DNA of 39,094 nt from a virus. Of this stretch, positions 990 to 15,487 are shown one piece after another. Positions within the stretch are counted from its first letter, which is position 1; each line of letters opens with the position of its first letter. The stretch covers positions 1 through 39,094 of the IMG/VR virus record IMGVR_UViG_3300020463_000048. One strand, 5' to 3'. Position numbers and translations under genes: made by a program. The notes under the pieces were generated by a model that worked only from the letters and a program-made list of their open reading frames with translations, ran no database searches and was not told where the DNA came from.

Positions 990-1892
990 ATGTTTGTATA
1001 CTGGGGAGCAAATGATTCTGGCAAGGCACATCTAAAGCACTATGCCAAACTGAACAATAAGACAAGTCTACTTTGGATGCCCAATGAAATTCGTAAGATC
1101 AAGACGACAACTCATATCAATGAAATCACTTGGACGGACGAGACCATTCATCGTATCATATATCATGACTTAGACGGTTTTCGTAATTGTGATAAGATTG
1201 AACGTCGAATATGGAAGCACCATGATCATGCTCAACCGAACAGCACAATCAATCCTAAAATCAAAGAAAAAGAAAACGGAATCAAGACAAAGAAAAATAA
1301 GATATACTCAGAGGATCAACTCAAAAAATACACACAGAAAGAATATATCAATACAGAAGTGTACTTTGACATTATTGCAAAGTATAATAAGTTTTGGGGT
1401 GATGATGGTATCTGTAAACCCCTGACCAGTGATACTCTAAAGAATCACTATAATGAGATACTGAATGATGTAGATGTGATTCAATTTATTCTCCCAGACT
1501 GGGCGATAGATGACCTAGAGGACATACTTAGAAAATCTGTCAATATCATACCGTACAAATCAAATCATCTAGATTCAGTGATAAGTAAGTTAGATCACTA
1601 TCGAAACCTCACTGGTGGTGACCTCTTTGAGAAATACAACACTGATAAGAATATTGTTTGGTCTTGGTTGAACGCTTACCTTGCCGAAGTTGATGATATG
1701 AAAGATAAACTCACACAACGTAACATACCTTTTCAGATGTTTGATTTAGATAATGATAGTTATCCCGACACCTTTGGATGGCAAGTTGACATGGATCGTA
1801 AGTTCTCTCACCGTGGTGCATCATGGAATCATGAGAATTATGAACGGGTCAAAAAGATAGCAGAAGAGTATATAACCGTGAAGTCCCTCTAA
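990..1892 (+). CDS. Unrecognised family, copy A (paralog of the gene at 11656)
   Basis: A 300-residue protein that I cannot place in a known family. It is clearly homologous to the protein at 11656-12705. Both start with a tyrosine-tryptophan segment followed by a GK-H-L motif (here YWGANDSGKAHL), and both share NIIPYK, EKYN, a VW-S/A-L segment, a FD/FN-L/M-D-x-D-x-Y-x-x-x-FG motif near residue 250 and an I-A-x-E-Y-[IV]-T-[IV] tail. The N-terminal GANDSGKA resembles a degenerate Walker A loop with Ala in place of Ser/Thr. Nucleotide binding is only a suggestion, because the paralog retains little more than the GK. A highly charged linker lies at about residues 92 to 115. The ATG start is supported by alignment with the paralog, although no ribosome binding site is seen. 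Confidence 0.75.
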   Translation: MFVYWGANDSGKAHLKHYAKLNNKTSLLWMPNEIRKIKTTTHINEITWTDETIHRIIYHDLDGFRNCDKIERRIWKHHDHAQPNSTINPKIKEKENGIKTKKNKIYSEDQLKKYTQKEYINTEVYFDIIAKYNKFWGDDGICKPLTSDTLKNHYNEILNDVDVIQFILPDWAIDDLEDILRKSVNIIPYKSNHLDSVISKLDHYRNLTGGDLFEKYNTDKNIVWSWLNAYLAEVDDMKDKLTQRNIPFQMFDLDNDSYPDTFGWQVDMDRKFSHRGASWNHENYERVKKIAEEYITVKSL

Positions 1893-2218: not shown

Positions 2219-2252
2219 AAAAAAGAGGGAGGTTGGATTACTGTATACCAAC
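2219..2252 (-). terminator. Possible intrinsic terminator or attenuator
   Basis: On the minus strand GTTGG (2252-2248) pairs with CCAAC (2236-2232) across an 11-nt loop. It is followed by CTCCCTC and six U residues (2224-2219). The seven bases between stem and U-run make it weaker than a textbook terminator. The CTCCC could alternatively pair with GGGAG near the leader's 5' end (2390-2386), which would allow switching between two folds. Confidence 0.3.
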
Positions 2253-2407
2253 AAAGAACGGGCATTACTACAGAGTAAAAACGTTCTTGCCTGAGACCCG
2301 ATTGGTTGATCGGTTCTTCTCTCGAAGCAGCACCACCTGTGTCTCATCACCTTATCCAGCGTTTGCCAGAAAGATTATTCAGTCACTCCCGACGTAACCG
2401 TCGTTAC
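2219..2407 (-). ncRNA. Candidate structured leader RNA with mini-cloverleaf
   Basis: This begins where transcription from the minus-strand promoter at 2414-2442 should start. Read on the minus strand, 5' to 3', it contains: a hairpin of CGACG, GTTA loop, CGTCG (2403-2390); a closing stem of TGAGAC (2346-2341) with GTCTCA (2297-2292) that encloses three close-packed hairpins, namely CAG/CTG, CTTC-GAGA-GAAG with a GNRA tetraloop, and CCGAT/ATCGG with a 6-nt loop; a long hairpin of AAGAACG/CGTTCTT with an inner TTACT/AGTAA stem (2288-2254); and a GTTGG/CCAAC stem followed by a U6 run (2252-2219). The 55-nt cloverleaf lacks a T-loop and anticodon loop, so it is not a tRNA. It could be a cis-regulatory leader of the two small membrane genes or a free small RNA. 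Folding was done by eye. Confidence 0.4.
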
Positions 2408-2413
2408 ATAGAT

Positions 2414-2442
2414 AGTATAACATCTTGATTATGATTTGTCAA
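2414..2442 (-). promoter_or_regulatory. Sigma70-type promoter with extended -10, minus strand
   Basis: On the minus strand TTGACA (2442-2437), a 17-bp spacer and TATACT (2419-2414), with TG one base upstream of the -10. The hexamers are the same as in the promoter at 103-131. It fires leftward into the candidate leader RNA and the two small membrane genes. Its -35 box lies directly upstream of the divergent SGNH gene at 2445. Confidence 0.7.
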
Positions 2443-2444
2443 CT

Positions 2445-3068
2445 ATGAAAATTTACTTTGATGGGTGCTCTTGGACAAGAGGAGAGGAATTAAATACACC
2501 AGAACATAATAGATTCTCAAGACTGGTATGTAATCAATTAGGAGCAGAGGAAGTCAATCTGTCGATGAAGGGAGGGTCAAATGATCGAATTGTAAGAAAC
2601 CTTTACTGTGATAATACTATCAAGGAGTGTGATTTAGCAGTCATACAAATGACTTTCCCTGCACGTACAGAGTATTTCAAGGGAGGAGAATGGAGAAAGG
2701 TGAATCCAATGCAGAACTACACTAAGTGGTTGCATGGGGAGCATGGAGATATCAAAAGACTTGGTGAGAAATTTGCTGACCACGCTGATTTCTGGAAATA
2801 CTTTTACATGCAGGTAGCAAATCGAGAATACTTTATTACAAAAGAAAGAATACAATTTGAGACGATACGTGATAATCTGAGAAGAAGAGGTATCCCACTG
2901 ATTATAGGTACAATCAATCGTTGGACTCACTTAGATTTTGATATACAGATGAATAATAACAATCGCCACAAGTGCACCTATGGTCATCCAAATGAGGAAG
3001 GTCATCGCCTTCTCGCTGCGAGAATCTTGAAAATTTTGAAGTCGTATCAAGAAACTGGTTTATTATGA
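2445..3068 (+). CDS. SGNH/GDSL-like hydrolase, paralog 1
   Basis: A 207-residue protein of the SGNH hydrolase fold, a family of serine esterases and acyl- or deacetylases acting on sugars, lipids or peptidoglycan. Block I is FDGCSWTRGEE, with Ser9 as the nucleophile in GCS rather than GDS. Block III is GGSND (Asn46). The block V histidine is His181 in HPNEEGH. The Asp three residues before that histidine, usual in the catalytic triad, is absent, as in all five paralogs here. I chose the ATG at 2445 because it gives the same N-terminus as the paralogs (a strand directly before GCS); a TTG at 2436 adds three residues. No signal peptide, so the protein is probably cytoplasmic. It is followed closely by the oxygenase gene at 3100. 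Confidence 0.75.
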   Translation: MKIYFDGCSWTRGEELNTPEHNRFSRLVCNQLGAEEVNLSMKGGSNDRIVRNLYCDNTIKECDLAVIQMTFPARTEYFKGGEWRKVNPMQNYTKWLHGEHGDIKRLGEKFADHADFWKYFYMQVANREYFITKERIQFETIRDNLRRRGIPLIIGTINRWTHLDFDIQMNNNNRHKCTYGHPNEEGHRLLAARILKILKSYQETGLL

Positions 3069-3099
3069 AGTTCTACAGGATCGCTGAAGAGATAATAAA

Positions 3100-3702
3100 A
3101 TGTATATCCATATAGAAAACTGGGTGCATGGTCAAGAAGACTATTTCCTCAATAAGTATAAGGATGACTTCTTCTTTCGTGGTTTATATGATAGTGAAGA
3201 GATCATCAAAGATAATCAGAAAGGTATTACGAAACAAGATATTATCAATGGTATTGAAAAACATAAACAAGTCAAAGATACCATGTACGGGAAACATTGG
3301 ACAAGTTATTATAAGACAGATGAGGGGTCTTATCAAGATACAGAGTTGTTGAAGACATATACTCCAAAGTTGACAGAGATTCTGAAGACGATCAGACTCT
3401 ATGGTACAGGCATATTCAGTTATAGTAGTATCTGGGGTCAGTTAGCAAAAGAAGGTGTACCCTGTTATATCAAGGAGCATAATCATTATAAACATCCAAA
3501 GCAAATGCTTTCATGGGTTCACTTTGTCAAAGTGCCAGAACAGAAGTGTTTTTACTTTTGTAAGAATGGTGGTAAGTCTTACCCAGTGCATCAGAAGTCA
3601 GGAGATCTCATGGTCTTTCCCAGTTATCTGTATCATGGGGTAGATGAACGAAAGAATCTTGAAGAACGATTTGTAGTTGTTGGAAATATTATAATGCTTT
3701 GA
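3100..3702 (+). CDS. Putative 2OG-Fe(II) oxygenase
   Basis: A 200-residue protein resembling the 2OG-Fe(II) oxygenase family common in T4-like cyanophages (PF13759-like), which oxidises a substrate using iron and 2-oxoglutarate. The visible core is HNHYKHP (His127, His129), a WVHFVKVP strand, then GDLMVFPSYLYHGV (distal His179) and an Arg190 suited to binding 2-oxoglutarate. The proximal metal motif is HxH rather than the classical HxD. The N-terminal 100 residues are not recognisable. It lies 31 bp after SGNH paralog 1 and probably shares its transcript. Its 3' end overlaps the convergent aldolase gene by 14 bp. The substrate is unknown. Confidence 0.65.
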   Translation: MYIHIENWVHGQEDYFLNKYKDDFFFRGLYDSEEIIKDNQKGITKQDIINGIEKHKQVKDTMYGKHWTSYYKTDEGSYQDTELLKTYTPKLTEILKTIRLYGTGIFSYSSIWGQLAKEGVPCYIKEHNHYKHPKQMLSWVHFVKVPEQKCFYFCKNGGKSYPVHQKSGDLMVFPSYLYHGVDERKNLEERFVVVGNIIML

Positions 3703-4423
3703 TTGCTGAACTCAGCATGGTCATATCTCCTGACCACGCTATAAACGTATAACCCTCTTCTTTACATTCTTCTAGTTTTTCGACATCTGGTTGTATGATG
3801 TGAATTCCTACAGGAATATTCTTAGAAATACATGATTCTCTCACATGTTTGACTATTTCTTTGAAAGCATAACTATCGAACTGTGCAGTAATATTGAACG
3901 ATGCAGAGAGATCATAAGGACCTATCAAGACGGCATCTGGTTTTGTATCAAGTATCGTTGTAATATTATTCACACCAGATTGAGATTCTATCATTGCTAC
4001 TAGGAAGGGTTTATCTTCGAGATGTCTCTCAAACTCAACACCATAAAGATTGCCTCGACAATAACCGACTCCCCTCTGTCCCTCTGGTGGATAATACATA
4101 ACTCTTTTGATTTCATCAATTTGATGCCATGTATGAATATTTGGTGCTATGATACCTGCTGCTCCCATATCAAGTGCTCGTCGAGCATGAAGAGGATCAG
4201 GACTTTGTACACGTGCGAACGGTAAAGTATTATGAAGTTCCAGAGCACGAAAGAGATTTGGTAAGTCTTCCATCCCTATTGAACCGTGTTCCAAATCGAC
4301 TGTTACCCAGTCGAACTTACCAGATCCTAGAACCTCTGCTACCTCAGGGCAGGGGAACTGCATCCAACTTCCCACTGATGCCTGTTCTTCTGACAGTTTC
4401 TGACGTAACTCTGAAATCTTCAT
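3689..4423 (-). CDS. HpcH/HpaI-family aldolase
   Basis: A 244-residue class II, metal-dependent aldolase of the HpcH/HpaI family (2-keto-3-deoxy acid aldolases that cleave or form C-C bonds with pyruvate). Conserved points seen are VDLEHGS (Asp43, Glu45, His46), Arg71 in FARVQS, metal ligands Glu146 (MIESQSG) and Asp171 (LIGPYDLS), and AAGIIAPNI. The length matches the family, and all the catalytic and metal residues I can check are intact, so it is probably active. Its ATG overlaps the stop of SGNH paralog 2 (ATGA), forming a two-gene operon. Making or breaking a ketodeoxy sugar would fit the glycan theme, but the true substrate is unknown. Confidence 0.85.
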   Translation of the reverse strand: MKISELRQKLSEEQASVGSWMQFPCPEVAEVLGSGKFDWVTVDLEHGSIGMEDLPNLFRALELHNTLPFARVQSPDPLHARRALDMGAAGIIAPNIHTWHQIDEIKRVMYYPPEGQRGVGYCRGNLYGVEFERHLEDKPFLVAMIESQSGVNNITTILDTKPDAVLIGPYDLSASFNITAQFDSYAFKEIVKHVRESCISKNIPVGIHIIQPDVEKLEECKEEGYTFIAWSGDMTMLSSAIKAL

Positions 4424-4989
4424 ACATTTATACTAGCACGTATATGGTCAGAAATCAATTGATGTCCTTTTTCATTTGGATGACCACCACCTTTACGTAA
4501 AGTGTGTTGCCCGACTAATTTACGAATGTTGTATGGATATGATGAACCCCATACGCTACCATATCCTTCTGGTTCCTCATCAATAGTCATCATGTAATAT
4601 CTCAGATTCTTAGACCTCAGATATGTCTCCATCAGAAACTGATTCTTGTAGAAGTTATCTAGTGCGTGATTGCTATTGTATATGTTCTTATAATATTCAC
4701 TCGCTATTTTCTTTCTATGACCTGTTGCATGATCCACTGCTCCTCTGCCTATGAAATTATATGCTGGTGCGTCTGGTTTACGAAACTCAGTTCGTAAGTT
4801 GACAGTCCATTGTATGATAACTGTGTCTATATTATCATTGCTTTCTAGGTGATTTATCGTGGTGCGTAGTATGCCATCATTACTTTTACCACACTCACCA
4901 ATGTTGACACCACCAATGAGATCAGTAAAGCGATATTGAGGGTCTACACCGTCCCCAAATGTCCACGAACAACCATCAAATAAGATCAT
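4420..4989 (-). CDS. SGNH/GDSL-like hydrolase, paralog 2
   Basis: A 189-residue SGNH-like hydrolase. Block I is FDGCSWTFGDG (Ser8), block III is GKSND (Asn37), and the histidine is His170 in HPNEKGH, again without the expected Asp at -3 (GGGH instead). The frame extends upstream to 5142, but I place the start at 4989 because that gives the same N-terminus as the paralogs and avoids overlap with the divergent gene at 5000. First gene of an operon with the HpcH/HpaI aldolase. Only 10 bp separate its start from the divergent neighbour. Confidence 0.72.
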   Translation of the reverse strand: MILFDGCSWTFGDGVDPQYRFTDLIGGVNIGECGKSNDGILRTTINHLESNDNIDTVIIQWTVNLRTEFRKPDAPAYNFIGRGAVDHATGHRKKIASEYYKNIYNSNHALDNFYKNQFLMETYLRSKNLRYYMMTIDEEPEGYGSVWGSSYPYNIRKLVGQHTLRKGGGHPNEKGHQLISDHIRASINV

Positions 4990-4999
4990 ACATATATGT

Positions 5000-5311
5000 A
5001 TGGACAGATATAGTGGGACTTCTAACGAAATACCTAAGGAATCACCAGGTTTAGTTGGTAGAATCATGAAACAAAATGATGGAAAGTGGTGTTGGGCATT
5101 GAATGAGAAGTTTACGTCTGTAGAATTTCGTGCAGATGGCACTCCAGCACTATTTCGAGGTGAATTTAGTGGTGCAATGTTCCTAGCAGCAGGGAAAGAT
5201 TGTGAAACTTATGATATTGCAAGCGAACAGCTCAAAAATGCGATCACAGCAGACAGTTCACCGAAGGTAAAAGCGATAAAAAAGGCAATAAGTGAGATAG
5301 ATTCTCTATGA
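5000..5311 (+). CDS. Hypothetical protein, 103 residues
   Basis: Not recognised. The sequence has a central beta-rich part (GKWCWALNEKFTSVEFRADG) and a helical, lysine-rich C-terminus. An internal ATG at residue 23 (MKQNDGKW) is an alternative start, since there is no clear ribosome binding site before 5000. The stop overlaps the start of the sulfotransferase gene at 5308 in an ATGA junction, so the two are probably coupled. Divergent from SGNH paralog 2. Confidence 0.55.
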   Translation: MDRYSGTSNEIPKESPGLVGRIMKQNDGKWCWALNEKFTSVEFRADGTPALFRGEFSGAMFLAAGKDCETYDIASEQLKNAITADSSPKVKAIKKAISEIDSL

Positions 5312-6183
5312 ATCCCAAATTAGTGTTTGGTTTTGGTGCTTTTAGTGCTTCTACACCTCTTTACAAGACTTTAGTAAAGGTAATTCGCAAACATGTTGCC
5401 AAAGAACCTTGTATTTTACCGTCAATTTACAGTAAAATCTACGATAATTCAATTAAAAACAAATATTTACAAGCAATACGCAAAAAAAGAGAAGGATTAG
5501 ACATATTTGCACCTGGCAATCAGACAATTTCGTATTATATTGACTGGTTGCTAGAAAAAAACTGCGATGTTTGTGATTTTAGCAATCCCCACGCTCAATT
5601 TCACGCAGAAATTATAGAAAAATTTGCAAATCAGTTCAAAAAACACTTTTCAGTCAAAGTTTTGATGATTTGTCGTGATCCTGTGCGACGATTATACTCA
5701 AATTTGAACTTTATACCCAATTCTGGTCACTCATTAGAGAAATATGGGCAAAATGAACGACTTGAGATGGTCATGGACTATATTAGCGAACCACCAGAGG
5801 TCAAATTCCCATGTCAAGACTGGGATCACACAAAAAAACACTACACACCGCTTGTAAATGGTAATTATCAGCAAATATACGATAACTGGTCACAGTTTTT
5901 TGACACTCATGTAATTATCATGGAAGATTTGTGGGCAAATAGAGAAAAAGAACTTGAAAGACTGAATAATTTTCTAGAAACTAATATAACAACACTACAT
6001 AAGAATCTTTACCATCCCTTTCAAGGTCCTGATGCAGAATTTGACAATGGATTGAAGGATCAATGGAGATCAGAGACAGAATGGATCAAAAAAGAAAATT
6101 TATTGAAGGCAAGAGAAAAAATGTCATGGGCGTACATTATTCAAGGGAGAAATCCTTGGAAAATAGATGAGTGGTTGGAATAA
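5308..6183 (+). CDS. Sulfotransferase, subfamily 1, paralog 1
   Basis: A 291-residue PAPS-dependent sulfotransferase-like protein. The N-terminal 5'-phosphosulfate loop is GFGAFSASTPL (residues 8-18). The 3'-phosphate site is CRDPVRRLYS, with Arg123 and Ser131 at the canonical eight-residue spacing. A DFSN motif precedes it and is shared with the paralogs at 8912, 9802 and 10691. Such enzymes move sulfate from PAPS to a hydroxyl or amine of a sugar, lipid or protein. No signal or membrane segment, so it should act in the cytoplasm. Translationally coupled to the gene at 5000. Its last 47 bp overlap the convergent sulfotransferase gene at 6137-7075. Confidence 0.8.
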   Translation: MNPKLVFGFGAFSASTPLYKTLVKVIRKHVAKEPCILPSIYSKIYDNSIKNKYLQAIRKKREGLDIFAPGNQTISYYIDWLLEKNCDVCDFSNPHAQFHAEIIEKFANQFKKHFSVKVLMICRDPVRRLYSNLNFIPNSGHSLEKYGQNERLEMVMDYISEPPEVKFPCQDWDHTKKHYTPLVNGNYQQIYDNWSQFFDTHVIIMEDLWANREKELERLNNFLETNITTLHKNLYHPFQGPDAEFDNGLKDQWRSETEWIKKENLLKAREKMSWAYIIQGRNPWKIDEWLE

Positions 6184-7075
6184 TTCCGTATTTTGCATCT
6201 TTTGTAATTACAAAAGTAAGTGGGTGCAATCTTTGACCTTCTGATATGAATTTTTTGAACTCGAAATCAATATTTTCGTCTTTTTTCAAATATCCTTTTG
6301 CAATACACCTGTAAAGTGCTTCTTCTAACTGTTTTTCAGTAATCTTGATTGGTTCTCGGTCACTTCCCTCGTTGAATCTTGAGGATTGTAGTATATTTGG
6401 TAATTTTGCAGATGATAGGTATGTTGATTTCAATCCAATCAGTGATTGAGTGTCATTTATGTCTATACAACTGATTTTGTCTCTTGACCCAAAGTCAAAG
6501 AGGTGTTTGTACATTAAATTATCAAAAATACTGTTTTTGGCATCTATATTTTTGATAAGTTCCTCATTATCCCATTTTCTTGCCTTATGTTTAATGTGTG
6601 ATAGCAATCTGTCTTTAGGATTACGAATAATACTGAAAACTACTTGATTTTTGTAAATAGAGTCCCATTCTGTGTTGTGAATACAGTAAAATGAACTATG
6701 GGTGTCTTCTATGTCTTTCATTGTAATAACAACATCTTTATTTGCTAATTTACCCGTAATTATTGATTTTTGATCACCACCTTCTTTGATAAGGTGATGT
6801 TTCATGATATCAAGTGGTTGTTCAAATGTTGTGCCCCCACATTTGGCAATATGCACAAAAAGTAGATGAAACGGATCTTTCATTCCCTCAAATGATGGCA
6901 CAAAATCATATTCAGGAATATTCACTTTTTGAAAGTCAATATATTCGTCTTTTGGAAGTTGATAGTGAAATAGAGGACTTTGACCCTGCATGTATAACTT
7001 ATTGTACATTTTTGCGAGTTTATAGTACTCTCTAAAATCTTTTACATTGTCCCAGTGAAACCCTAACCAATTCAT
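6137..7075 (-). CDS. Sulfotransferase, HIPKTGG-type (subfamily 2)
   Basis: A 312-residue protein of a different sulfotransferase branch, like the Sulfotransfer_2 group that acts on carbohydrates. The 5'-phosphosulfate loop is VHIAKCGGTTFE (His75 to Thr83), matching the HIPKTGGTT consensus, and the 3'-phosphate site is SIIRNPKDRLLSH (Arg151, Ser159). About 65 residues precede the core. It is monocistronic on the minus strand and faces the sulfotransferase at 5308, overlapping its 3' end by 47 bp. Start at 7075 is the first ATG of the frame, 27 bp from the divergent SGNH paralog 3. Confidence 0.82.
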   Translation of the reverse strand: MNWLGFHWDNVKDFREYYKLAKMYNKLYMQGQSPLFHYQLPKDEYIDFQKVNIPEYDFVPSFEGMKDPFHLLFVHIAKCGGTTFEQPLDIMKHHLIKEGGDQKSIITGKLANKDVVITMKDIEDTHSSFYCIHNTEWDSIYKNQVVFSIIRNPKDRLLSHIKHKARKWDNEELIKNIDAKNSIFDNLMYKHLFDFGSRDKISCIDINDTQSLIGLKSTYLSSAKLPNILQSSRFNEGSDREPIKITEKQLEEALYRCIAKGYLKKDENIDFEFKKFISEGQRLHPLTFVITKDAKYGIIPTTHLFSKDFSLE

Positions 7076-7102
7076 AATATATACATTACTGACTTAATTA
7101 TA

Positions 7103-7765
7103 ATGCAAGTTGATTTATTTTTCTGTGGCGATAGTAACACGTATGGTGAAGAATTGCAAGGGGAAGAGAATGATCATAAAAAAAGAATACTGAAAAGATA
7201 TTCATCATTAGTATCCGATAAATTAGGTAAAACTCATTGTAATCTTTCTCAAAGTGGTGCCAGTAACGATTGGATCGTGAAAATGACTGTAGATTGGTTT
7301 GAAAAAAATCAATGTCACACCGCCATAATTCAATTCAGTAATTATAGTAGGTGGGGATGGTATGACGAAGATGGCAAATACTGGAATATAGGAAATCAAA
7401 AAGCAGGACCTCGTTGTTTAACTGATAAAATGAAAAATGCTCACTCAAATTATTATGAATCAATTTGGAGTGAACAATTGGCACTTGATAACTATTGGAA
7501 AAATAAATTCTTTCTCAAAAATTATTTGAAGGACAGGTGTAAGAAGGTAATATGGATGACTTTAGGGAGAATACCAAATGGTAACGATCAACTCTACAAA
7601 GCAAATTCTTGGCAAATACATTGTGGGGATATGGAGATAGGAGAACAAAAACGAATAATTATGGGTAATACTTGTGATAAAATAAACAATGATGTTTTTA
7701 CAGGATCTCATCCAAATGAAGAAGGACATCAAAATATTGCGAATTGGATATTGGAGCGTTTATGA
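7103..7765 (+). CDS. SGNH/GDSL-like hydrolase, paralog 3
   Basis: A 220-residue SGNH-like hydrolase and the only one of the five with a classical GDS block (FFCGDSNTYGEE, Ser11). Block III is GASND (Asn55), and His203 lies in HPNEEGH. The position three residues before the histidine is not Asp. It opens a three-gene coupled operon: its TGA overlaps the ATG of the kinase-like gene at 7762, which in turn overlaps SGNH paralog 4 at 8289. Confidence 0.75.
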   Translation: MQVDLFFCGDSNTYGEELQGEENDHKKRILKRYSSLVSDKLGKTHCNLSQSGASNDWIVKMTVDWFEKNQCHTAIIQFSNYSRWGWYDEDGKYWNIGNQKAGPRCLTDKMKNAHSNYYESIWSEQLALDNYWKNKFFLKNYLKDRCKKVIWMTLGRIPNGNDQLYKANSWQIHCGDMEIGEQKRIIMGNTCDKINNDVFTGSHPNEEGHQNIANWILERL

Positions 7766-8292
7766 AAAAATTTGATATAAAACCGATAGACTGGAAAAGG
7801 ACTTACTATCCAAACCCTAGATCTACAGTATCTTTTACAGAGGCATGGGACAGGAATCAAGGTGATGAAGAAGTTTACTCTACTTCTTCAAGTTACTTTC
7901 TAACTAAGACCATATCATATACAAATGAAAAGAGGTATAGAACAGACATTGATAATTTATCTAGACTCAAAGAAGATAAGTTTGATATCGTAAAAATACC
8001 TGATTACACCTTTGAATATTCTGATATGACAATACAATACACTTGTCAGTATCTTAAGGGTTATTATACTAATCAAGAATCAATGTTTAGATTATATAAT
8101 GATCTTGTAATGAGAAAATCAGAATATACCTTTGCTGATTACAATGTCATGAACTTTATAACTGTCAATCACCCACAGATAGATGGTATCTATGCAATTG
8201 ATTTGAATTCTTATCGTAAGTGTTCTAAAGACCTACGTAAATTTTTGTGGGAAAGATATCACTCAATGCCTAAACCAGAGGTGTACTCATGA
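7762..8292 (+). CDS. Kinase-like C-lobe protein (tentative)
   Basis: A 176-residue protein. I start it at 7762 (MKKFDIKP) because GGAG lies 5 bp upstream and the ATGA overlap couples it to the preceding gene; a GTG or similar codon at 7744 would add six residues. The C-terminal half has features of a protein-kinase or phosphotransferase C-lobe: QYLKGYY like a hinge, FADYNVMNFI with Asp126 and Asn131 in the D-x4-N catalytic-loop spacing, and YAIDLNSY (Asp147) where DFG or DFD would stand. The N-lobe with its ATP-binding lysine is very short or missing, so activity is uncertain. It sits between two SGNH genes, consistent with a sugar or lipid phosphotransfer role, but this is inference. Confidence 0.5.
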   Translation: MKKFDIKPIDWKRTYYPNPRSTVSFTEAWDRNQGDEEVYSTSSSYFLTKTISYTNEKRYRTDIDNLSRLKEDKFDIVKIPDYTFEYSDMTIQYTCQYLKGYYTNQESMFRLYNDLVMRKSEYTFADYNVMNFITVNHPQIDGIYAIDLNSYRKCSKDLRKFLWERYHSMPKPEVYS

Positions 8293-8939
8293 TTTTATTT
8301 TCAGGTTGTAGTTTTACATGGGGTGATGAATTACAAGGTTTAGAGAAGAATCATGTAAGACGTATAGAAAAGAGATTCTCATCTTTAGCAACCAATAAAC
8401 AGTCATACAATATATCAGAGTGTGGTATAGCAAATGATGTGATTGTCAGGAAGACAATAGATTTTATTGAGGGAAGATTGCCTGAATTTGTTGTAGTGCA
8501 ATTTACAGTTAGTAACAGATATTCGATTTATTATGATAACAAGTGGATTAATATTAATACTCATTTTACGAAAAAAGCACCAACAAGATGGTGGTTCAAA
8601 GAAATTCATAATGAGGTTTATGCTGCAAACGAATTATGGAGATGTATACACTTGATGGAATTGTACCTAGAGAATAAAAATATACCATACTACTTCATGC
8701 GAATAGGTGGAGGTATTGAAGATCAAATCGAAAAGCAAGATAATACTTACAAGAGAGCGTGTAAAAATAAAAATATAACAAGAATAGATCGTGACCTAAT
8801 AGGATATCATTTGAAAACTACAAAACCACCTAATCCAAACTACTGTTCGTACATAAATCCACGCTTTGGTGGTGGTCATCCTAGCGAAAAGGGGCATCAA
8901 ATCATCGCAGATCACCTCCAAGGCATACTTCCAAAGTGA
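8289..8939 (+). CDS. SGNH/GDSL-like hydrolase, paralog 4
   Basis: A 216-residue SGNH-like hydrolase. Block I is FSGCSFTWGDE (Ser8), followed by the LQGLEKNH segment also seen in paralog 3; block III is GIAND (Asn49), and His197 is in HPSEKGH without Asp at -3 (GGGH). Coupled by ATGA to the kinase-like gene, with a purine-rich AGAGG upstream. Its 3' end overlaps the convergent sulfotransferase gene by 28 bp. Confidence 0.75.
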   Translation: MILFSGCSFTWGDELQGLEKNHVRRIEKRFSSLATNKQSYNISECGIANDVIVRKTIDFIEGRLPEFVVVQFTVSNRYSIYYDNKWININTHFTKKAPTRWWFKEIHNEVYAANELWRCIHLMELYLENKNIPYYFMRIGGGIEDQIEKQDNTYKRACKNKNITRIDRDLIGYHLKTTKPPNPNYCSYINPRFGGGHPSEKGHQIIADHLQGILPK

Positions 8940-9817
8940 TCATACCACTCATTATAGAATTTTTGCATACACTTACGTCCATATACGAGATCACCGTGTG
9001 TAAGATCCTCTAAATCTGATTCATACTGATCGGCAAGATACTCATGACGTGGTGCTTTTGTTCCCATTTCAGGATAATAGCAGTTAGGCCATAGGTTTTT
9101 GATGTCGAACTGTAAAAAATTACTAAGATTTGCTAGACTGTCACTTTTTCCACCCCAAAGTTCCTCAGAAACAATAGTTGTGGTACTAAAAATTGACTTA
9201 TAATACTTTATCCTAGAAATATAATCGCAATTAGGGGTAAAATTATTTTTATTAAGATAACTCCAGAGATACTTCTTGGATGTCGGATACTCTTTTCTCA
9301 GTATAGCACTGTTTTGGTAATTGTGTGATAATTCACTGTACAATCTTCTTATTGGATCTCTAAAAATCATCAGAACTTTGATTTTGAAGTGTTTTCTCAG
9401 TTCTGGTGCTATCTCTTGTAGGAATTTACGAGGCAACCAAGCATTTGTATTTGAGAAATCATGCACATAAGAGTATTCATGTTTTACTCTCTCATAGTGT
9501 CGAGTGTAATACTTGATATAAGTTTCTAAAGTCGGTTTTTCATATAACTCTTTAATCTCTTCGAGATTATTGTGGAAAGCATATTTGTTTTGATACCCAT
9601 AAGGATGTTTCCAAATAGGTGTCATAGAGTCATTAATTAATCTCTCATACCAATACTTCCTGTAGTTCCAAGCATCTTTATTGTATATGTGATACAACAA
9701 CCAGTCTTCTTTGAGTATACCTGCATGAGAGCACTTGTTGGCACATTGAAGTGTCAGGTGCAGAGGACTTGTCGCACACCATCCTGTACCAGCACCGATA
9801 ATTAAAGGAACTCGCAT
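8912..9817 (-). CDS. Sulfotransferase, subfamily 1, paralog 2
   Basis: A 301-residue sulfotransferase with a GAGTGWCATSPL 5'-phosphosulfate loop (residues 8-19), an HDFSN motif and a 3'-phosphate site FRDPIRRLYS (Arg153, Ser161). Close in sequence to the protein at 9802, which it follows in a minus-strand operon with a 16-bp overlap. C-terminal YYPEMGTKAP resembles YYPERGVDAP in that neighbour, so the two probably arose by tandem duplication and then diverged. Cytoplasmic, acceptor unknown. Confidence 0.82.
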   Translation of the reverse strand: MRVPLIIGAGTGWCATSPLHLTLQCANKCSHAGILKEDWLLYHIYNKDAWNYRKYWYERLINDSMTPIWKHPYGYQNKYAFHNNLEEIKELYEKPTLETYIKYYTRHYERVKHEYSYVHDFSNTNAWLPRKFLQEIAPELRKHFKIKVLMIFRDPIRRLYSELSHNYQNSAILRKEYPTSKKYLWSYLNKNNFTPNCDYISRIKYYKSIFSTTTIVSEELWGGKSDSLANLSNFLQFDIKNLWPNCYYPEMGTKAPRHEYLADQYESDLEDLTHGDLVYGRKCMQKFYNEWYDHFGSMPWR

Positions 9818-10581
9818 GCGTAATGTTTCTTTAGTTTCTTTTTGGCATAAAAATACTCATTTTCTAATAACACATCAGTGTCTGACTTTTGACATTGTAG
9901 TCCATCAATCAGAGGAGCATCTACTCCTCTCTCAGGGTAATATGCTGTGGGATACAAGTCAACAGTGAATCCTAAGAAGTTTTCTAAATCCTTTTTTTGA
10001 CCAGAGTATATTTTCTCCATACTTATGGGGTGTATTTTGTAACCAGAGTTCTTCCAATTGTCATAGTAATGCTGATAATTTTCTGAATCTGTGATACTGC
10101 CAGTTTCCAACACAGACATAAAGTATTCTTTTGCACTCTTACAATCTGTCTGCACCCACTTGTTCTCATAGAAGGCACAGCACTCAGAAAATAATCTTCT
10201 AGCTGGATCTCGAAATATCATCAACACTTTCACGTCGAAATGCTCCTCTAAGGTTGGTCTAATCTCTTTTAGGTAGTCTGGTCGTATTTTCTGATTAGCG
10301 TTCGTAAAATCGGTCACACCGTCGTATCCTACTGCATTGTTCTTGTATATCTCTATGAATTTGTCAAGTGTAGGAGTTTCTTCATATCCATATCTTTTGT
10401 TTCTCTCTCTTGTCTCTTTCGACTCTGAATAGAACTTCAAATGCTTTGGATCATTTATTGAAAGTTGATACAAAATATGATCTTCTTTACCTAGTCCATG
10501 ATTGTAATTACGAAGTGAGAACATCAAAGATCTAGTTGCTGACCATCCTACCCCTGCACCAATGATCAATTTGGGTCTCAT
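9802..10581 (-). CDS. Sulfotransferase, subfamily 1, paralog 3
   Basis: A 259-residue sulfotransferase: GAGVGWSATRSL loop (8-19), TDFTN motif, and FRDPARRLFS 3'-phosphate site (Arg124, Ser132). Shorter than its neighbours because of a reduced segment between the two PAPS motifs. First gene of a minus-strand pair with the sulfotransferase at 8912. Its start codon abuts the plus-strand late-promoter-like motif at 10579. Confidence 0.82.
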   Translation of the reverse strand: MRPKLIIGAGVGWSATRSLMFSLRNYNHGLGKEDHILYQLSINDPKHLKFYSESKETRERNKRYGYEETPTLDKFIEIYKNNAVGYDGVTDFTNANQKIRPDYLKEIRPTLEEHFDVKVLMIFRDPARRLFSECCAFYENKWVQTDCKSAKEYFMSVLETGSITDSENYQHYYDNWKNSGYKIHPISMEKIYSGQKKDLENFLGFTVDLYPTAYYPERGVDAPLIDGLQCQKSDTDVLLENEYFYAKKKLKKHYACEFL

Positions 10582-10588
10582 AAATACA
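10579..10588 (+). promoter_or_regulatory. Late-promoter-like ATAAATA motif
   Basis: CATAAATAC lies about 20 bp upstream of the small gene at 10609. It matches the ATAAATA core of T4-like late promoters and sits in the 27-bp gap between divergent genes. If used, the operon from 10609 to 14702 would be expressed late. A seven-base AT motif can arise by chance, so this is moderate evidence. Confidence 0.4.
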
Positions 10589-10608
10589 TCACACTTACCT
10601 TATGTATT

Positions 10609-10698
10609 ATGAAAAAACTATGGGATTGGATAAAGGGCGAGTACAAACTTTGGAAGTTGCGTCGAGAAGATCCATACATTTACGAAGAGGATGACTAA
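10609..10698 (+). CDS. Small basic/acidic protein, 29 residues
   Basis: A 29-codon frame (starting MKKLWDWIKGEYKLWKLRRE) with an aromatic and lysine-rich N-terminal helix and an acidic tail ending EEDD. The stop overlaps the ATG of the sulfotransferase at 10691 by 8 bp, and a late-promoter-like motif lies upstream. Similar tiny Trp/Lys-rich proteins occur in T4-like cyanophages as I recall, but I cannot check this. Function unknown. Confidence 0.5.
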   Translation: MKKLWDWIKGEYKLWKLRREDPYIYEEDD

Positions 10699-11659
10699 AA
10701 TACCGTTTCTGCTTTTTTGCGGATGGGGGCATGCTGCGTCTACGCCTTTCTACTACACTCTTGCAGACAACATGTATTGCCATGGTGGTCACATCAAAGA
10801 ACCGTCATATCTACCAAACCTTGAGCAGTACGAATATTACGACAGACCCATGTGGGAGTATAACTCTGATCCATGGGAGAGATTGTTAGGTCCTGATTCA
10901 CCAAACGTACCTAGTGAGTTGAATCACCACTCACCATATAATAAGTTCTCAGAAAAGTTTATGTGTGACTGGATAGCAGAACCACCTAGCATCCAAAAGT
11001 ACATAGACTATTATCTAATACACTATCAGAATATAAAAGGAAAGTACAAAGCAGTAGCAGATTTCAGTAATTGTAATAATTGGTTGAGAGAACCTTTTCT
11101 TGATAAGTATGTACCAATACTCAAGGAGCACTTTGATATCAAGGTCGTCATGATGGCAAGAGACCCTGTGCGTAGAACTTACTCAGACTTTTACGCAAAG
11201 TTCAATGGTAATTGTAATAGTAGTGAGTGGTATGAGAAGGGAATGTTCTATCCTAATATGCCAATGCAAGAGAAGTATGATAAGATAGAGCAATTATTCA
11301 AGGGTGAGTTATTGACGGTGGAGACATTTTATTATGTCAACTTCTATAGAAAGTTCAAAAAGTATTTCCCTACCCTTCAACTTGTGATGGAAGAGTTTTG
11401 GGAACCACAAATGCTCAAGCAGCAAACTAAGAAATTATCTGAATTCCTTGATTACCCCATTACAAAGATACATGAAAATGTATTTTGGCCACATCAACAC
11501 GCACCTAAGTATGATTATCTAAAAGACCAGTGGGGAGCAGTAGATAAACCCATAAGCAAAGACTTATATGAATATGGTAAGAACGTATTGTTCCCCATAT
11601 ATAAACAGTGGAAAGACGAGTTTGGAGTATTACCTAATACATGGGGTGAGCATATATGA
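10691..11659 (+). CDS. Sulfotransferase, subfamily 1, paralog 4
   Basis: A 322-residue sulfotransferase, the longest of the subfamily. Motifs are CGWGHAASTPFYYTL (residues 10-24), ADFSNCNNWL, and a 3'-phosphate site ARDPVRRTYS (Arg157, Ser165). Extra length lies between the loop and the DFSN motif (aromatic, proline-rich). It is the second gene of the longest accessory operon, followed through an ATGA overlap by family copy B, then the carbamoyltransferase and SGNH paralog 5. Confidence 0.82.
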   Translation: MTKIPFLLFCGWGHAASTPFYYTLADNMYCHGGHIKEPSYLPNLEQYEYYDRPMWEYNSDPWERLLGPDSPNVPSELNHHSPYNKFSEKFMCDWIAEPPSIQKYIDYYLIHYQNIKGKYKAVADFSNCNNWLREPFLDKYVPILKEHFDIKVVMMARDPVRRTYSDFYAKFNGNCNSSEWYEKGMFYPNMPMQEKYDKIEQLFKGELLTVETFYYVNFYRKFKKYFPTLQLVMEEFWEPQMLKQQTKKLSEFLDYPITKIHENVFWPHQHAPKYDYLKDQWGAVDKPISKDLYEYGKNVLFPIYKQWKDEFGVLPNTWGEHI

Positions 11660-12705
11660 TTAATTATTGGGCGATTCCAAATATGGGTAAGATGCACTTG
11701 ATGCAACTTATAGAACTCAATGAAAAGACATATGTAAAAACTGGAGGTAAATATTACTTCTATAAACAGTGGCATGACCCTAATAATTTTGCAAAAAGGA
11801 TCGAAAAATCATATGTTGTCAGAAAAGGGTTTACAGTTGTAGAAACACCAATAAAAACAAAAACAACAGCTGGTCAAAAATCTGACGTATGTTTTAGTGA
11901 AAGGCATGAGTACTTAGATCTTGTAGAAGACTTAACTATTGATAGCACTAAACTACACTCCAACACGAGCGAGGTTGGTGGTGATTTGATGGTAAAATAT
12001 TTTGGAAATGTAAGTGAAAGAAAACCCCCCGATGAATTTATGAAGGGTAAAGATCCTGTTGAGGTATTTTTCACAGACAAGCATTTTGCTGAATTACAAA
12101 AACATTTTCCAGTATCACCATCTGGTAATTATCTTGGAACATTTTTAGAACCATATATTCATAGTAACTCTGAATTTATAATGCCACTTGTAGAAGATTT
12201 GATAAACGTTGACATTATGTTCAATCCATTTTCTCTTTTAGGAAAATATATGTTAGGTTATATCAAAGAAATTCAATTAGAGAGAACTGAACTTGAAAAA
12301 TATGTGCTTAATTTTTACAAATCAAGAAAAAATATAATACCATACAAAGAGAATCTGGTTGATTGTTTTGCAAGTAAACTGAAAAGAATCAAGAAGTATA
12401 ATGTGATAGAGAAGTACAATAGAAATAAAAGGATGGTATGGGCATCTCTCGACGGAGTTGTTAGAAACTTAAGGAGAATTGAAAAGTATTTGCAAGATGC
12501 TGATATAGACGCTGCATACTTCAATATGGATAGAGATGATTATGGAGAGGTATTTGGTTTTGAAAAGAACGAATTACCAAGAGATCATACACATCCTGGC
12601 GACTACCCAGAGCGTGAACAGTATGAGCAAATCGCAAAGGAGTATGTTACAATAAGGGATATGAGAGATATGAGGAGGCGAAACAGATTACGTGATTGGA
12701 TTTAG
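11656..12705 (+). CDS. Unrecognised family, copy B (paralog of the gene at 990)
   Basis: A 349-residue protein homologous to the one at 990-1892 but about 50 residues longer in the N-terminal half. Shared elements are the N-terminal YW...GK-H-L segment, NIIPYK, EKYN, MVWASL and, near residue 285, FNMDRDDYGEVFG followed by DHTHPGDYPER; in copy A the equivalent histidine is in KFSHRGASWNHE. The repeated charged and aromatic C-terminal motif looks like an active or binding site, but I recognise no family. It lies between a sulfotransferase (ATGA overlap) and a carbamoyltransferase (14-bp overlap), which ties it to the glycan-modifying genes. Confidence 0.72.
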   Translation: MINYWAIPNMGKMHLMQLIELNEKTYVKTGGKYYFYKQWHDPNNFAKRIEKSYVVRKGFTVVETPIKTKTTAGQKSDVCFSERHEYLDLVEDLTIDSTKLHSNTSEVGGDLMVKYFGNVSERKPPDEFMKGKDPVEVFFTDKHFAELQKHFPVSPSGNYLGTFLEPYIHSNSEFIMPLVEDLINVDIMFNPFSLLGKYMLGYIKEIQLERTELEKYVLNFYKSRKNIIPYKENLVDCFASKLKRIKKYNVIEKYNRNKRMVWASLDGVVRNLRRIEKYLQDADIDAAYFNMDRDDYGEVFGFEKNELPRDHTHPGDYPEREQYEQIAKEYVTIRDMRDMRRRNRLRDWI

Positions 12706-14068
12706 TGAAGGGTTTCATGACGCTGCAGTCGCTGTAGTAAATGATGGTAGAATTTGTTATGCTACACACTCAGAGAGATACTCAAAGATAAAGCATGATA
12801 AGCACTTAGACATCACTGCTGCGTCCACAGCACAGTTATTATGTCATGATGGTAAGATAGCATTCTATGAGAGACCGTGGTTGAAGAGGACAAGGCAGTT
12901 ATTTGCAGGTCAGAAAGCATGGTATAGACCTAGACACTTGACACTCGAACCAACAGAATATTATAGTCATCATAAATCACACGCTGCAGCAGCGTTTCAA
13001 ACATCATTATTTGAAGAAGCAGCATGTGTAGTTGTAGATAGTATAGGCGAGTGGGACACTACTTCCATATGGACTGCGAAGTACAAAGACGGAAAAGCAA
13101 TATACAAGAAGGTGTGGTCGCAGTGGTATCCGCAATCAATTGGTTTATGGTATTCAGCACTGACTAAATGGGCAGGTCTACGTCCACTAGATGAGGAGTA
13201 TATCTTCATGGGTATGGCAGCATTCGGTGATCCCGTGCACATGAACGTGGTAGAGCGACAACTTCACAAAAACAATCATAAGGGTGCGAGACTAAGTGAT
13301 TATAAAAAGGAGAACATTGCAAAAAGTGCAGAGCGAATACTACAGATGGAACTTAATAACATATTTGCTGAAGCAGCAAAGTATAGTAACAACATTTGCT
13401 ACGGTGGTGGTGTCGCACTCAACTGTGTCGTAAACACTGGATTGAGAGAGATGTACAACATGTGGATTATGCCATGTCCTGGTGACGCAGGTGGTGCATT
13501 AGGTGCAGCATGTCTTGCTTATGGTGGCAAGGTTGCTTTCAGTCCATACTTGGGATATAATATACAAAAGTTCTGTGATCCAAGGAGAGTTGTTGATGCA
13601 CTCCTCGAAAAAAGAGTCGTGGGGGTTGCAAATGGTCGTAGTGAGTTTGGTCCTCGTGCTCTCGGTAATCGAAGTTTATTGGCGGATCCGAGGGAAGCTA
13701 GTACAAAAGACTTAGTGAACGAAATCAAAAAAAGAGATAAGTTCAGACCTTTTGCACCTGCTATACTTGAAGAGCATTGTCAAGATTACTTTGACATGCC
13801 TAAAGAATCAAGGTACATGTCCTATGTTTATAAATGTAAACAATCAAGGGCGATACCTGCCTGTATACACGTTGATAACAGTGCTAGGGTACAAACAGTG
13901 CCAAAGGACTCAGAAAGCATTCTGAGACCCATACTGGAGTGTTGGTACAAACGCACAGGTTGTCCTGTGTTATTAAATACATCTCTGAATATCAAGGGAA
14001 AACCCATGGTAAATACAATCGGAGACGCAAAATTATTTGAGATGAATTATGATGTCACTGTGTTTTAG
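12692..14068 (+). CDS. Carbamoyltransferase, NodU/CmcH/TobZ family
   Basis: A 458-residue O-carbamoyltransferase, which uses carbamoyl phosphate and ATP to carbamoylate a hydroxyl group, classically on sugars or antibiotics. Seen: GFSEGFHDAAVAVV with the metal-binding HD, SERYSKIKHDKH, SHHKSHAAAAF (His93, His94, His97), DSIGEWDTTSIW, a glycine-rich GDAGGALGAA nucleotide segment, and the C-terminal GRSEFGPRALGNRSLLADPR and RPFAPAILEE, ending with LLNTSLNIKGKPMV. It starts with GTG; a GAGGAGG lies 13 bp upstream inside the preceding gene. It is roughly 100 residues shorter than typical members, mainly between the MGMAAFGDP segment and the middle helices. The motifs are intact, so activity is likely. 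It overlaps SGNH paralog 5 by 20 bp. Confidence 0.88.
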   Translation: MIGFSEGFHDAAVAVVNDGRICYATHSERYSKIKHDKHLDITAASTAQLLCHDGKIAFYERPWLKRTRQLFAGQKAWYRPRHLTLEPTEYYSHHKSHAAAAFQTSLFEEAACVVVDSIGEWDTTSIWTAKYKDGKAIYKKVWSQWYPQSIGLWYSALTKWAGLRPLDEEYIFMGMAAFGDPVHMNVVERQLHKNNHKGARLSDYKKENIAKSAERILQMELNNIFAEAAKYSNNICYGGGVALNCVVNTGLREMYNMWIMPCPGDAGGALGAACLAYGGKVAFSPYLGYNIQKFCDPRRVVDALLEKRVVGVANGRSEFGPRALGNRSLLADPREASTKDLVNEIKKRDKFRPFAPAILEEHCQDYFDMPKESRYMSYVYKCKQSRAIPACIHVDNSARVQTVPKDSESILRPILECWYKRTGCPVLLNTSLNIKGKPMVNTIGDAKLFEMNYDVTVF

Positions 14069-14702
14069 TGGTTGCAGCATCACATGGGGTGATGAATTAA
14101 AAAATAGATATCAAGAGAGATATAGTACAATTGTGTCAAAACATTATGATTGTAGGCACTTCAACTTATCTCAATGCGGTATCAGTAATGATTCAATCGT
14201 ACGAACTACGATAAACAATTTAGAAAACTTATCTGCAAAACCAGATGTGGTTGTCATGCAGTTTACCGTGCATCCTAGAATAGAATATTTTACTGACGAT
14301 GATATCATTCAAAATTGGACACCACAGAGTGTCGGTAAGTTTGATAAGTGTAGAAATTATTATGTCTCAATCTATAATGAAATTATAGGTAATGAGAATA
14401 TGTGGAAAAACATATTTTTATTCGATGCATATTGTAAAGCAAATAATCAAAAGTATGTTTCATTCATCGCAGATCATTTTGAGCGTATTGTGGTGAAACC
14501 TGAGAAGTATTACAACAATGGTGAGGGTTACTGGAAAAAGATGTGTGGTGACTATAACCCTAATTTTTTACAATATCATTGGTTAGGAACATCTCAAGAG
14601 TGTCCACAACACTATGCTCTAGGAGAGAAAGGTGGGCATCCAAGTGCAAAAGGACATAAAAAAATGGCAGAAAAAGTTATTGAGTTGATAGACGCTATAT
14701 AA
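14049..14702 (+). CDS. SGNH/GDSL-like hydrolase, paralog 5
   Basis: A 217-residue SGNH-like hydrolase: FSGCSITWGDE (Ser10), GISND (Asn47), and His197 in HPSAKGH with no Asp at -3. Closest in pattern to paralog 4 (GCSxTWGDEL). A second ATG directly follows the first, so the start may be 3 bp later. Last gene of the operon begun at 10609; its end carries the -35 box of the next promoter. Confidence 0.75.
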   Translation: MMSLCFSGCSITWGDELKNRYQERYSTIVSKHYDCRHFNLSQCGISNDSIVRTTINNLENLSAKPDVVVMQFTVHPRIEYFTDDDIIQNWTPQSVGKFDKCRNYYVSIYNEIIGNENMWKNIFLFDAYCKANNQKYVSFIADHFERIVVKPEKYYNNGEGYWKKMCGDYNPNFLQYHWLGTSQECPQHYALGEKGGHPSAKGHKKMAEKVIELIDAI

Positions 14703-14713
14703 AGTGTTATAAT
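14685..14713 (+). promoter_or_regulatory. Sigma70-type promoter with extended -10
   Basis: TTGATA at 14685-14690, a 17-bp spacer and TATAAT at 14708-14713, with TG one base before the -10. It starts inside the 3' end of the SGNH gene and drives the glycosyltransferase at 14735. Same spacer and extended -10 as the promoters at 103 and 2442. Confidence 0.7.
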
Positions 14714-14734: not shown

Positions 14735-15487
14735 ATGGCTAAAGGATTTAAGGTGGTTTCAAAATCACCAATTGAGAAAAAAGATGACTTTGACTTGGCA
14801 GCAGCAAAAGAACTACTCAAAGGAAAGAGTATTGTTTTCTGTTTACCTGGTAGAGGTGTATCATACATTTTCCTAAAGAATTTCGTATCACTCTGTTTTG
14901 AGTTGGTACAGAACGGAGCAAATATACAGATAGCACAAGACTATAGTTCCATGGTGAACTTTGCAAGATGTAAGTGTCTTGGTGCAAACGTTCTCAGAGG
15001 ACCTGATCAATTACCTTGGGATGGTAAACTTGAGTATGATTACCAACTTTGGATTGACTCTGATATTGTTTTCAATGTAGAAAGTTTCTATCGTGTTCTT
15101 GCAATGCAAAAAGATATTGCAGGTGGATGGTATGCTACAGAGGATGGACAAACCACATCATGTGCACATTGGTTGGAAGAGGATGATTTCAAGGAGAATG
15201 GTGGTGTCATGAATCATGAAATGGTTGATGGTATTGTCAAACGTCGTAAACCTTTCACTGTTGACTATTCTGGATTTGGTTGGTTACTTATTAAGAAAGG
15301 TGTATTTGAACATAAAGAGATGAAGTATCCTTGGTTTGCTCCACAGATGCAAGTATTTGATTCTGGTGAGGTACAAGATATGTGTGGTGAAGACGTATCA
15401 TTCTGTCTCGATGCGATCAAAGCAGGTTTTGAAATATGGATAGATCCACAATGTAGAGTTGGTCACGAGAAAACAAGAATCATATAG
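14735..15487 (+). CDS. Glycosyltransferase, GT-A fold
   Basis: A 250-residue protein with GT-A glycosyltransferase features: a FCLPGRGVSY start of the nucleotide-sugar fold, an FARCKCLGANVLRG helix, the DxD metal motif in LWIDSDIVF (about residues 108-116), an acceptor-side GWYATEDGQTT segment, and a late EDVSFCLDAIKAGFEIWIDP motif with the catalytic-base-like Glu-Asp, followed by a histidine (GHEK). Proteins of this form are frequent in T4-like cyanophages, from memory. It has its own early-type promoter, so it may be expressed apart from the island upstream. Sugar donor and acceptor are unknown; DNA, virion or host glycan are all possible. Confidence 0.75.
   Translation: MAKGFKVVSKSPIEKKDDFDLAAAKELLKGKSIVFCLPGRGVSYIFLKNFVSLCFELVQNGANIQIAQDYSSMVNFARCKCLGANVLRGPDQLPWDGKLEYDYQLWIDSDIVFNVESFYRVLAMQKDIAGGWYATEDGQTTSCAHWLEEDDFKENGGVMNHEMVDGIVKRRKPFTVDYSGFGWLLIKKGVFEHKEMKYPWFAPQMQVFDSGEVQDMCGEDVSFCLDAIKAGFEIWIDPQCRVGHEKTRII

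Follow-up and report, generated by a model that had tools for sequence, protein, structure and literature searches.

What would a marine virus do with sulfotransferases, SGNH-fold proteins and an O-carbamoyltransferase placed next to its baseplate genes? The question is raised by the IMG/VR virus record IMGVR_UViG_3300020463_000048, whose entire 39,094 bases, referred to here as the window, belong to a T4-like virus of the marine cyanophage type. The right half of the window is the baseplate region, with gp25 at 15741 followed by gp6, gp7 and beyond, and to its left lies an island of genes whose families recur together at this one site in related viruses. As argued below, the island may be a repertoire for decorating a glycan, possibly that of the host surface.

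Co-occurrence of the gene families at one genome site

Relatives were gathered in three ways, namely through an alignment of the SGNH family, an alignment of the sulfotransferases and gene R, a conserved neighbour located between the island and gp25, and were reduced to 180 distinct contigs, which were searched with iterated family profiles. At least three island genes are present in 78 of these contigs, the window included, and in most of the 78 the gene order ends carbamoyltransferase-SGNH-R-(S)-gp25-gp6; the order carbamoyltransferase-SGNH-R is kept in 48 contigs. Among the 23 loci that were fetched by R only and extend at least 5 kb upstream, 13 carry the carbamoyltransferase, each with at least two of the SGNH, sulfotransferase and carbamoyltransferase families, and the remaining 10 carry none of the three; the one-sided Fisher probability for SGNH with carbamoyltransferase in this set is approximately 1e-5, a value inflated by the relatedness of the contigs. 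Where the sequence upstream of R reaches 8 kb or more, 30 loci have both SGNH and sulfotransferase genes, 5 have neither and 1 has only one of the two, in a set enriched by the partial use of these two families to fetch its members. If R is first dereplicated at 92% identity, the association is still strong in this enriched, mixed set (15 loci with both, 7 without both). In other words, the families do not scatter independently, because they co-occur in the R-anchored as well as in the wider sets, and the expectation of an earlier note on this DNA, that the same families should be found together in other phages, holds at one site upstream of R and gp25.

Inside the islands, gene order and orientation vary strongly, with HNH endonuclease and radical-SAM genes occupying some slots in relatives and a nucleotide-sugar epimerase-like gene present in three of them. 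The carbamoyltransferase is single in each of 15 tallied contigs, in which sulfotransferases number 0-9 and SGNH genes 2-7 per contig; a few contigs beyond these 15 have several carbamoyltransferase open reading frames (ORFs). The nearest paralogs within a contig are typically about 35% (sulfotransferases) and 32% (SGNH) identical, whereas the most similar sequence comes from a different contig in 175 of 182 cases for the sulfotransferases and 168 of 173 for the SGNH genes, which together point to old paralog pools that are shuffled, not to fresh duplication. The compared island genes are under purifying selection, with estimable omega values mostly between 0.03 and 0.27 and one pair at 0.41.

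Extent and gene content of the island

The earlier note had placed the island at 2445-14702. Its gene content is as described there, all the named genes being intact ORFs at the coordinates given, and its extent is larger: the island starts left of 2445, because a paralog of orfO (orfA) sits at 990-1892, and the manA RNA and R likewise lie outside that range. The features are as follows.

990-1892, plus strand: orfA, 300 aa, paralog of the orfO family (BLASTP to orfO 33%, E 5e-14)
2222-2408, minus strand: manA RNA (RF01745), candidate cis-regulatory RNA (cmscan 186.7 bits, E 1.1e-50)
2414-2442, minus strand: sigma-70-type promoter, TTGACA-N17-TATACT with TG, ending just 5' of the manA RNA
2445-3068, plus strand: orfB, SGNH-fold family (similarity to the other four SGNH proteins)
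3100-3702, plus strand: orfC, 2-oxoglutarate (2OG)-Fe(II) oxygenase (PF13759 1.2e-6, phrog_81 4.5e-21)
3689-4423, minus strand: orfD, HpcH/HpaI-type aldolase of the 2-keto-3-deoxy sugar acid aldolase family (PF03328 1.4e-21)
4420-4989, minus strand: orfE, SGNH-fold family (similarity to the other four SGNH proteins)
5000-5311, plus strand: orfF, 103 aa, no assigned family (homologs in related islands)
5308-6183, plus strand: orfG, main-family sulfotransferase (PF00685 3e-4; family profile)
6137-7075, minus strand: orfH, second-family sulfotransferase, Sulfotransfer_2 (PF03567 1.5e-5, above cutoff; phrog_3347 2e-6)
7103-7765, plus strand: orfI, SGNH-fold family (PF00657 0.0016; family similarity)
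7762-8292, plus strand: orfJ, weakly kinase-like (N131 and D147-L148 conserved; OspG kinase E 0.096)
8289-8939, plus strand: orfK, SGNH-fold family (Pfam scan, family similarity)
8912-9817, minus strand: orfL, main-family sulfotransferase (family similarity and profile)
9802-10581, minus strand: orfM, main-family sulfotransferase (Pfam scan, family similarity and profile)
10691-11659, plus strand: orfN, main-family sulfotransferase heading the N-O-P-Q run (Pfam scan, family similarity)
11656-12705, plus strand: orfO, family without sequence match, tentatively of P-loop-like fold (AlphaFold2 model)
12692-14068, plus strand: orfP, O-carbamoyltransferase of the NodU/TobZ type (PF16861 6e-54, PF02543 4e-32, phrog_1601 3e-93)
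14049-14702, plus strand: orfQ, SGNH-fold family (AlphaFold2 pLDDT 95.7, Z about 15 to GDSL/TesA)
14685-14713, plus strand: sigma-70-type promoter of R, TTGATA-N17-TATAAT, extended -10
14735-15487, plus strand: orfR, phrog_1574 (5e-114), glycosyltransferase-like, conserved neighbour
15497-15685, plus strand: orfS, phrog_3252 small protein (PHROG match)
15674-15691, plus strand: intrinsic terminator separating R/S from gp25
15703-15719, plus strand: late-promoter-like motifs CTAAATA / GATAAATA ahead of gp25

Five sulfotransferases are present, as had been claimed, with the refinement that four of them (G, L, M and N) form one family and H belongs to another. The five SGNH proteins (B, E, I, K and Q) are indeed one SGNH-fold family, and the carbamoyltransferase, HpaI-type aldolase and 2OG oxygenase assignments are upheld by Pfam matches. 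The gene couplings are also real, judging by the coordinates, with overlaps of approximately 4 bp for D/E, J/K and N/O, 14 bp for O/P and 20 bp for P/Q. The protein called kinase-like (J) exists, and its assignment to kinases is weak. The window has no tRNA genes in its 39,094 bases and encodes very large structural proteins, namely gp7 of 2754 aa (18268-26532) and a protein of 2397 aa (31242-38435).

Properties of the enzyme families

Single island proteins score weakly in Pfam, and the family calls therefore rest mainly on profiles. By BLASTP and profile, G, L, M and N are mutually related, and the profile of this main family matches solved sulfotransferases (3rnl, 1.3e-7; heparan 3-OST-5, 2.8e-4). 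The RxP...S motif, which in enzymes dependent on 3'-phosphoadenosine 5'-phosphosulfate (PAPS) binds the 3'-phosphate, is present (R153 in 56/57, D154 in 53/57, P155 in 56/57 and S161 in 56/57 sequences of the main family). A 192-kb relative (L230) has three extra sulfotransferases and two P-loop proteins (TGPQGSGNHL...) at 36000-55000, flanked by a 1430-aa tail-fibre-like gene and neck genes.

The five SGNH proteins of the window are 24-39% identical to each other, with E-values down to 1e-26. The model of orfQ is confident, and its structural matches to GDSL/TesA proteins are full length (against 4rw0: Z 15.2, 166 aligned, root-mean-square deviation 3.0). The catalytic Ser and His and the block II Gly are kept (S10 75/75, H197 74/75, G44 72/75). 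In a 122-kb relative (L234), an SGNH gene lies outside the island, between the genes for the tail-sheath stabiliser and the terminase.

As for the carbamoyltransferase, orfP has both the N-terminal (Kae1-like, PF02543) and the C-terminal (YrdC-like, PF16861) domain and carries HHxxHA and GGGxAxN motifs. Its nearest solved relatives in a PDB profile search are decarbamoylnovobiocin carbamoyltransferase, GdmN and TobZ, and it matches the NodU family NF041651 with E 2.7e-44 and 151.9 bits, below the equivalog cutoff of 1000. OrfD scores 77.3 bits against a PF03328 cutoff of 25, and matches TIGR02311/TIGR03239 with E in the 1e-31 range, yet under their equivalog cutoffs.

The orfA/orfO family has 36 homologs in 28 contigs. 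The AlphaFold2 model of orfO (pLDDT 78.6) gives Z 8.7 to the YorR kinase and 7.3 to the Stf0 sulfotransferase, and Foldseek returned no significant match for it. We also considered this family as relatives of the sulfotransferases, and a profile comparison with the main sulfotransferase family gave no link. OrfR has weak glycosyltransferase matches in PHROG (1.4e-4 and 0.0015) but no Pfam or PDB match, and its sequence contains a DxD motif. A twitch-domain radical SAM protein (NF033640) adjoins R in 14 contigs (e.g. L091 4064-5341), its gene replacing or coming after the terminal SGNH gene, and a 439-aa protein whose sole match is phrog_25854, of unknown function, stands beside sulfotransferase and SGNH genes in L006 and L091 (8645-9961).

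The manA RNA and the predicted transcription layout

The manA RNA, at the left edge of the island, is the single Rfam match in the window, covering positions 1-192 of the model in full length at 186.7 bits against a threshold of 55.2. Counting the window, 17 of the 180 contigs have it, every one of them with the island, and it is antisense to gp25 in every contig whose orientation is known. A sigma-70 promoter resembling TTGACA-N17-TATAAT precedes all 17, its -10 element ending approximately 6-15 bases upstream of the start of the RNA match. In seven relatives (L022, L041, L043, L061, L094, L131 and L157) the RNA is directly followed by a sulfotransferase or SGNH gene on its own strand, which links the island to sugar metabolism. 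Namely, published manA RNAs, from marine and cyanophage sequences, precede mannose/fructose and other metabolic genes (PMC2864571, PMC9964418), with Weinberg and co-workers describing cyanophage examples before mannose, fructose, nucleotide and photosynthesis genes (PMC2864571). Contigs L004, L019, L072, L093 and L110 end at or inside the RNA, which suggests that assemblies break at a conserved manA RNA flanked by variable genes.

At the right edge, the layout is sigma-70 promoter, R, terminator, late motif and gp25. Of 129 loci, 105 have a sigma-70 promoter scoring at least 11 ahead of R, against a background of 0.3%. A terminator follows in 69 of the 92 gaps between R and gp25 (background 0.9% per 250 nt). 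In 118 of 129 loci (background 2%), a TAAATA motif of the late type, which we take to be the cyanophage late promoter, lies approximately 27 bases before gp25. This combination of sigma-70 promoters, terminator and late promoter, as predicted from these motifs, speaks against counting the island simply with the late virion unit of gp25, and it weakens a simple late-virion reading drawn from proximity to gp25. Most island genes have neither a sigma-70 nor a late motif of their own, and, taken as a whole, the window shows no enrichment of the late-promoter pattern HATAAATA. A single late-type motif, CATAAATA, lies at 10579-10586, 105 bases before the N-O-P-Q run; most sulfotransferase genes of the relatives have no such motif nearby.

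Host and distribution of the families

The closest annotated relatives of the window are Prochlorococcus and Synechococcus myoviruses (Kyanoviridae), at approximately 69-72% DNA identity. Since psbA and psbD are found on long contigs of some island-bearing relatives, the group most likely infects cyanobacteria. In 50,697 phage records, the main sulfotransferase and SGNH families were found only in the uncultured Marine virus AG-345-D19, the source plate of which is described in PMC6122165, and orfO had no match.

Could the island genes have come directly from the host? Among 400 Cyanobiaceae genomes, a profile search returned distant relatives of the sulfotransferases in 23 and of the SGNH proteins in 3, and a pattern scan for SGNH relatives in cell genomes gave 62 matches, none of them a true relative. 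The distant cyanobacterial sulfotransferases carry GVGAQKGGTTWL in the 5'-phosphosulfate loop. Because this P-loop differs from that of the island proteins, and because six cyanobacterial sulfotransferase neighbourhoods, judged from ORF sequences only, show no clear polysaccharide cluster, a direct host origin is not supported.

What might the island do?

The earlier note had proposed a system that sulfates, carbamoylates and acylates or deacylates a polymer. The chemical part of this proposal stands: the families fit a sugar-decorating chemistry, in which sulfate, carbamoyl and acyl groups are added or removed, and the manA RNA provides a link to sugar metabolism, with the activities themselves being predictions from sequence. 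The reading that we favour, and which we regard as about evenly poised between right and wrong, is that the island is a repertoire for decorating a host surface glycan during infection. Namely, a T4-like cyanophage would keep a modular island for glycan decoration at a constant position next to gp25. Its sulfotransferases would add sulfate to an existing glycan, drawing on host PAPS, the single NodU/TobZ-type O-carbamoyltransferase would add carbamoyl groups to the same glycan, the SGNH proteins would add or remove acyl esters on it, and sugars would be adjusted by the aldolase, the 2OG oxygenase and, in those relatives that have them, epimerase or radical-SAM proteins. Phages would swap members of the old sulfotransferase and SGNH paralog pools, so that the pattern of decoration would differ from lineage to lineage. 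The arm that follows the manA RNA would start at a strong host-type (sigma-70) promoter and probably be gated by that RNA, and the glycosyltransferase-like R would likewise start at a sigma-70 promoter. The target would be the surface glycan of the infected cyanobacterium, i.e. lipopolysaccharide (LPS) or exopolysaccharide, its decoration altering the attachment of competing phages. Cyanobacteria produce sulfated exopolysaccharide (PMC8205485), and cyanophage LPS genes have been proposed to change the host surface (PMC9602691). What is more, no genes for the synthesis or export of sugar polymers were recognised in the island, which fits the decoration of a glycan that already exists. It is from elements such as these that we infer the timing of expression, the substrate and the biological role of the island. 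A more specific proposal, which we put forward tentatively and with some doubt, is that of a combinatorial glycan code, in which interchangeable sulfotransferases and SGNH proteins around one carbamoyltransferase at a fixed site, partly under manA control, would yield lineage-specific sulfated and carbamoylated glycans on the surface (or the virion).

That said, several observations weigh against decoration of the host surface as set out above. The basic residue of the PAPS 5'-phosphosulfate loop (K/R-x-G-T) is missing from the main-family alignment, where the consensus is GxGWSATTP; the SGNH family alignment lacks the block III Asn (GxND) and the Asp of DxxH, block III being replaced by Q71-x-T73...R77 and the -3 residue of DxxH being non-acidic. 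Given these departures in the active sites, the activities could differ, and catalysis by both families is therefore a prediction. In the window, no minus-strand gene lies downstream of the manA RNA, which may thus be orphaned there. A sigma-70 promoter of their own was not found for most sulfotransferase, SGNH and carbamoyltransferase genes, and lead island genes are preceded by TAAATA more often than expected (in 22 of 203 cases, the expected number being 4.9). Finally, the 192-kb and 122-kb relatives have extra copies amid neck, sheath and tail-fibre-like genes.

It is because of these extra sulfotransferase and SGNH copies that the main alternative retains weight, namely that the enzymes modify sugars on tail or baseplate proteins, with R beginning the glycan, and thereby mask or tune receptor binding. 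The position of the island, fixed next to gp25, the resemblance of R to GT-A enzymes through its PHROG matches and DxD motif, and the late-type motif before some lead island genes would all suit such virion decoration. R has a sigma-70 promoter, however, and a terminator cuts it off from gp25; all 17 manA arms stand behind a sigma-70 promoter; and R also occurs in cultured cyanophages without the island (P-SSM2 locus). On account of the sigma-70 promoters and the terminator we judge the host surface to be the likelier target, and consider virion decoration unlikely.

We hold it quite improbable that the island makes a soluble, sulfated and carbamoylated metabolite of the saxitoxin type, with no polymer involved. 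The closest solved relatives of the carbamoyltransferase are antibiotic carbamoyltransferases, and a sulfotransferase and a carbamoyltransferase do occur together in the saxitoxin pathway (PMC2684587), but no scaffold-forming enzyme (polyketide synthase, nonribosomal peptide synthetase) was recognised among the island proteins scanned, and the sulfotransferase and SGNH paralogs, whose numbers vary greatly, suit diversity of pattern on a polymer better than a single fixed product. An equally slim chance is given to a hypervariable insertion site that collects unrelated metabolic genes with no joint function. While such unlinked cargo would agree with the strongly variable order and orientation and with the HNH endonuclease and radical-SAM genes in some slots, nearly all islands have the same three families, with hardly any discordant case, carbamoyltransferase, SGNH and R keep their order in the 48 contigs, and the genes are under purifying selection. 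As for other roles, no island family match points to DNA base modification, a scan with anti-phage defence models gave no match, and no finding speaks directly to the receptor masking or defence escape that the earlier note had suggested.

Comparison with known systems

Phage-borne genes for surface glycans are known, including the LPS clusters of cyanophages (PMC3037559, PMC9602691). The LPS/cell-wall clusters of the large T4-like cyanophages P-SSM2, S-SSM7 and S-SCSM1 likewise consist of phage-borne sugar genes with a presumed effect on the host surface, and a carbamoyltransferase is present in several of these genomes as well. These clusters, however, carry nucleotide-sugar synthesis genes and glycosyltransferases near hli03/phoH, whereas decoration enzymes dominate the island, which lies beside gp25; moreover, none of the cultured phage records searched has the sulfotransferase and SGNH families of the island. 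The Synechan system of Synechocystis also involves a sulfated cyanobacterial polysaccharide with sulfotransferases (PMC8205485), while the phage island differs in having no recognised polymerisation or export genes.

The uncultured single-particle genome of AG-345-D19 combines a carbamoyltransferase of 65% identity with main-family sulfotransferases and SGNH proteins, in unannotated, incomplete contigs whose gene complement differs from the island of the window. In rhizobia, Nod factors are decorated with carbamoyl groups by NodU/NolO, sulfate by NodH and acetyl by NodL, all on one glycan. The island would have the same trio of chemistries, a parallel in which sequences were compared for P and NodU only; it differs in having no genes for a lipochitooligosaccharide backbone, and P lies far under the NodU cutoff.

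The manA RNA, finally, is the same element as RF01745, with the same full-length match, the same cyanophage context and possibly the same place in the 5' untranslated region of metabolic genes. The genes reported with it are mannose/fructose, nucleotide, chaperone and photosynthesis genes, whereas in relatives of the window it stands before sulfotransferase and SGNH genes. In a literature search we found no paper that pairs a sulfotransferase with a carbamoyltransferase in phages. What is new here is a fixed-site, combinatorial repertoire of putative decoration enzymes, built from families unseen in the cultured phage records searched and with a manA RNA inside it. If the proposed function is correct, marine cyanophages carry a dedicated and quickly reshuffling toolkit for decorating sugar polymers, the manA RNA, the role of which is still unproven, gains concrete and testable target genes, and the island is relevant to phage competition on the surface of the most abundant photosynthetic cells.

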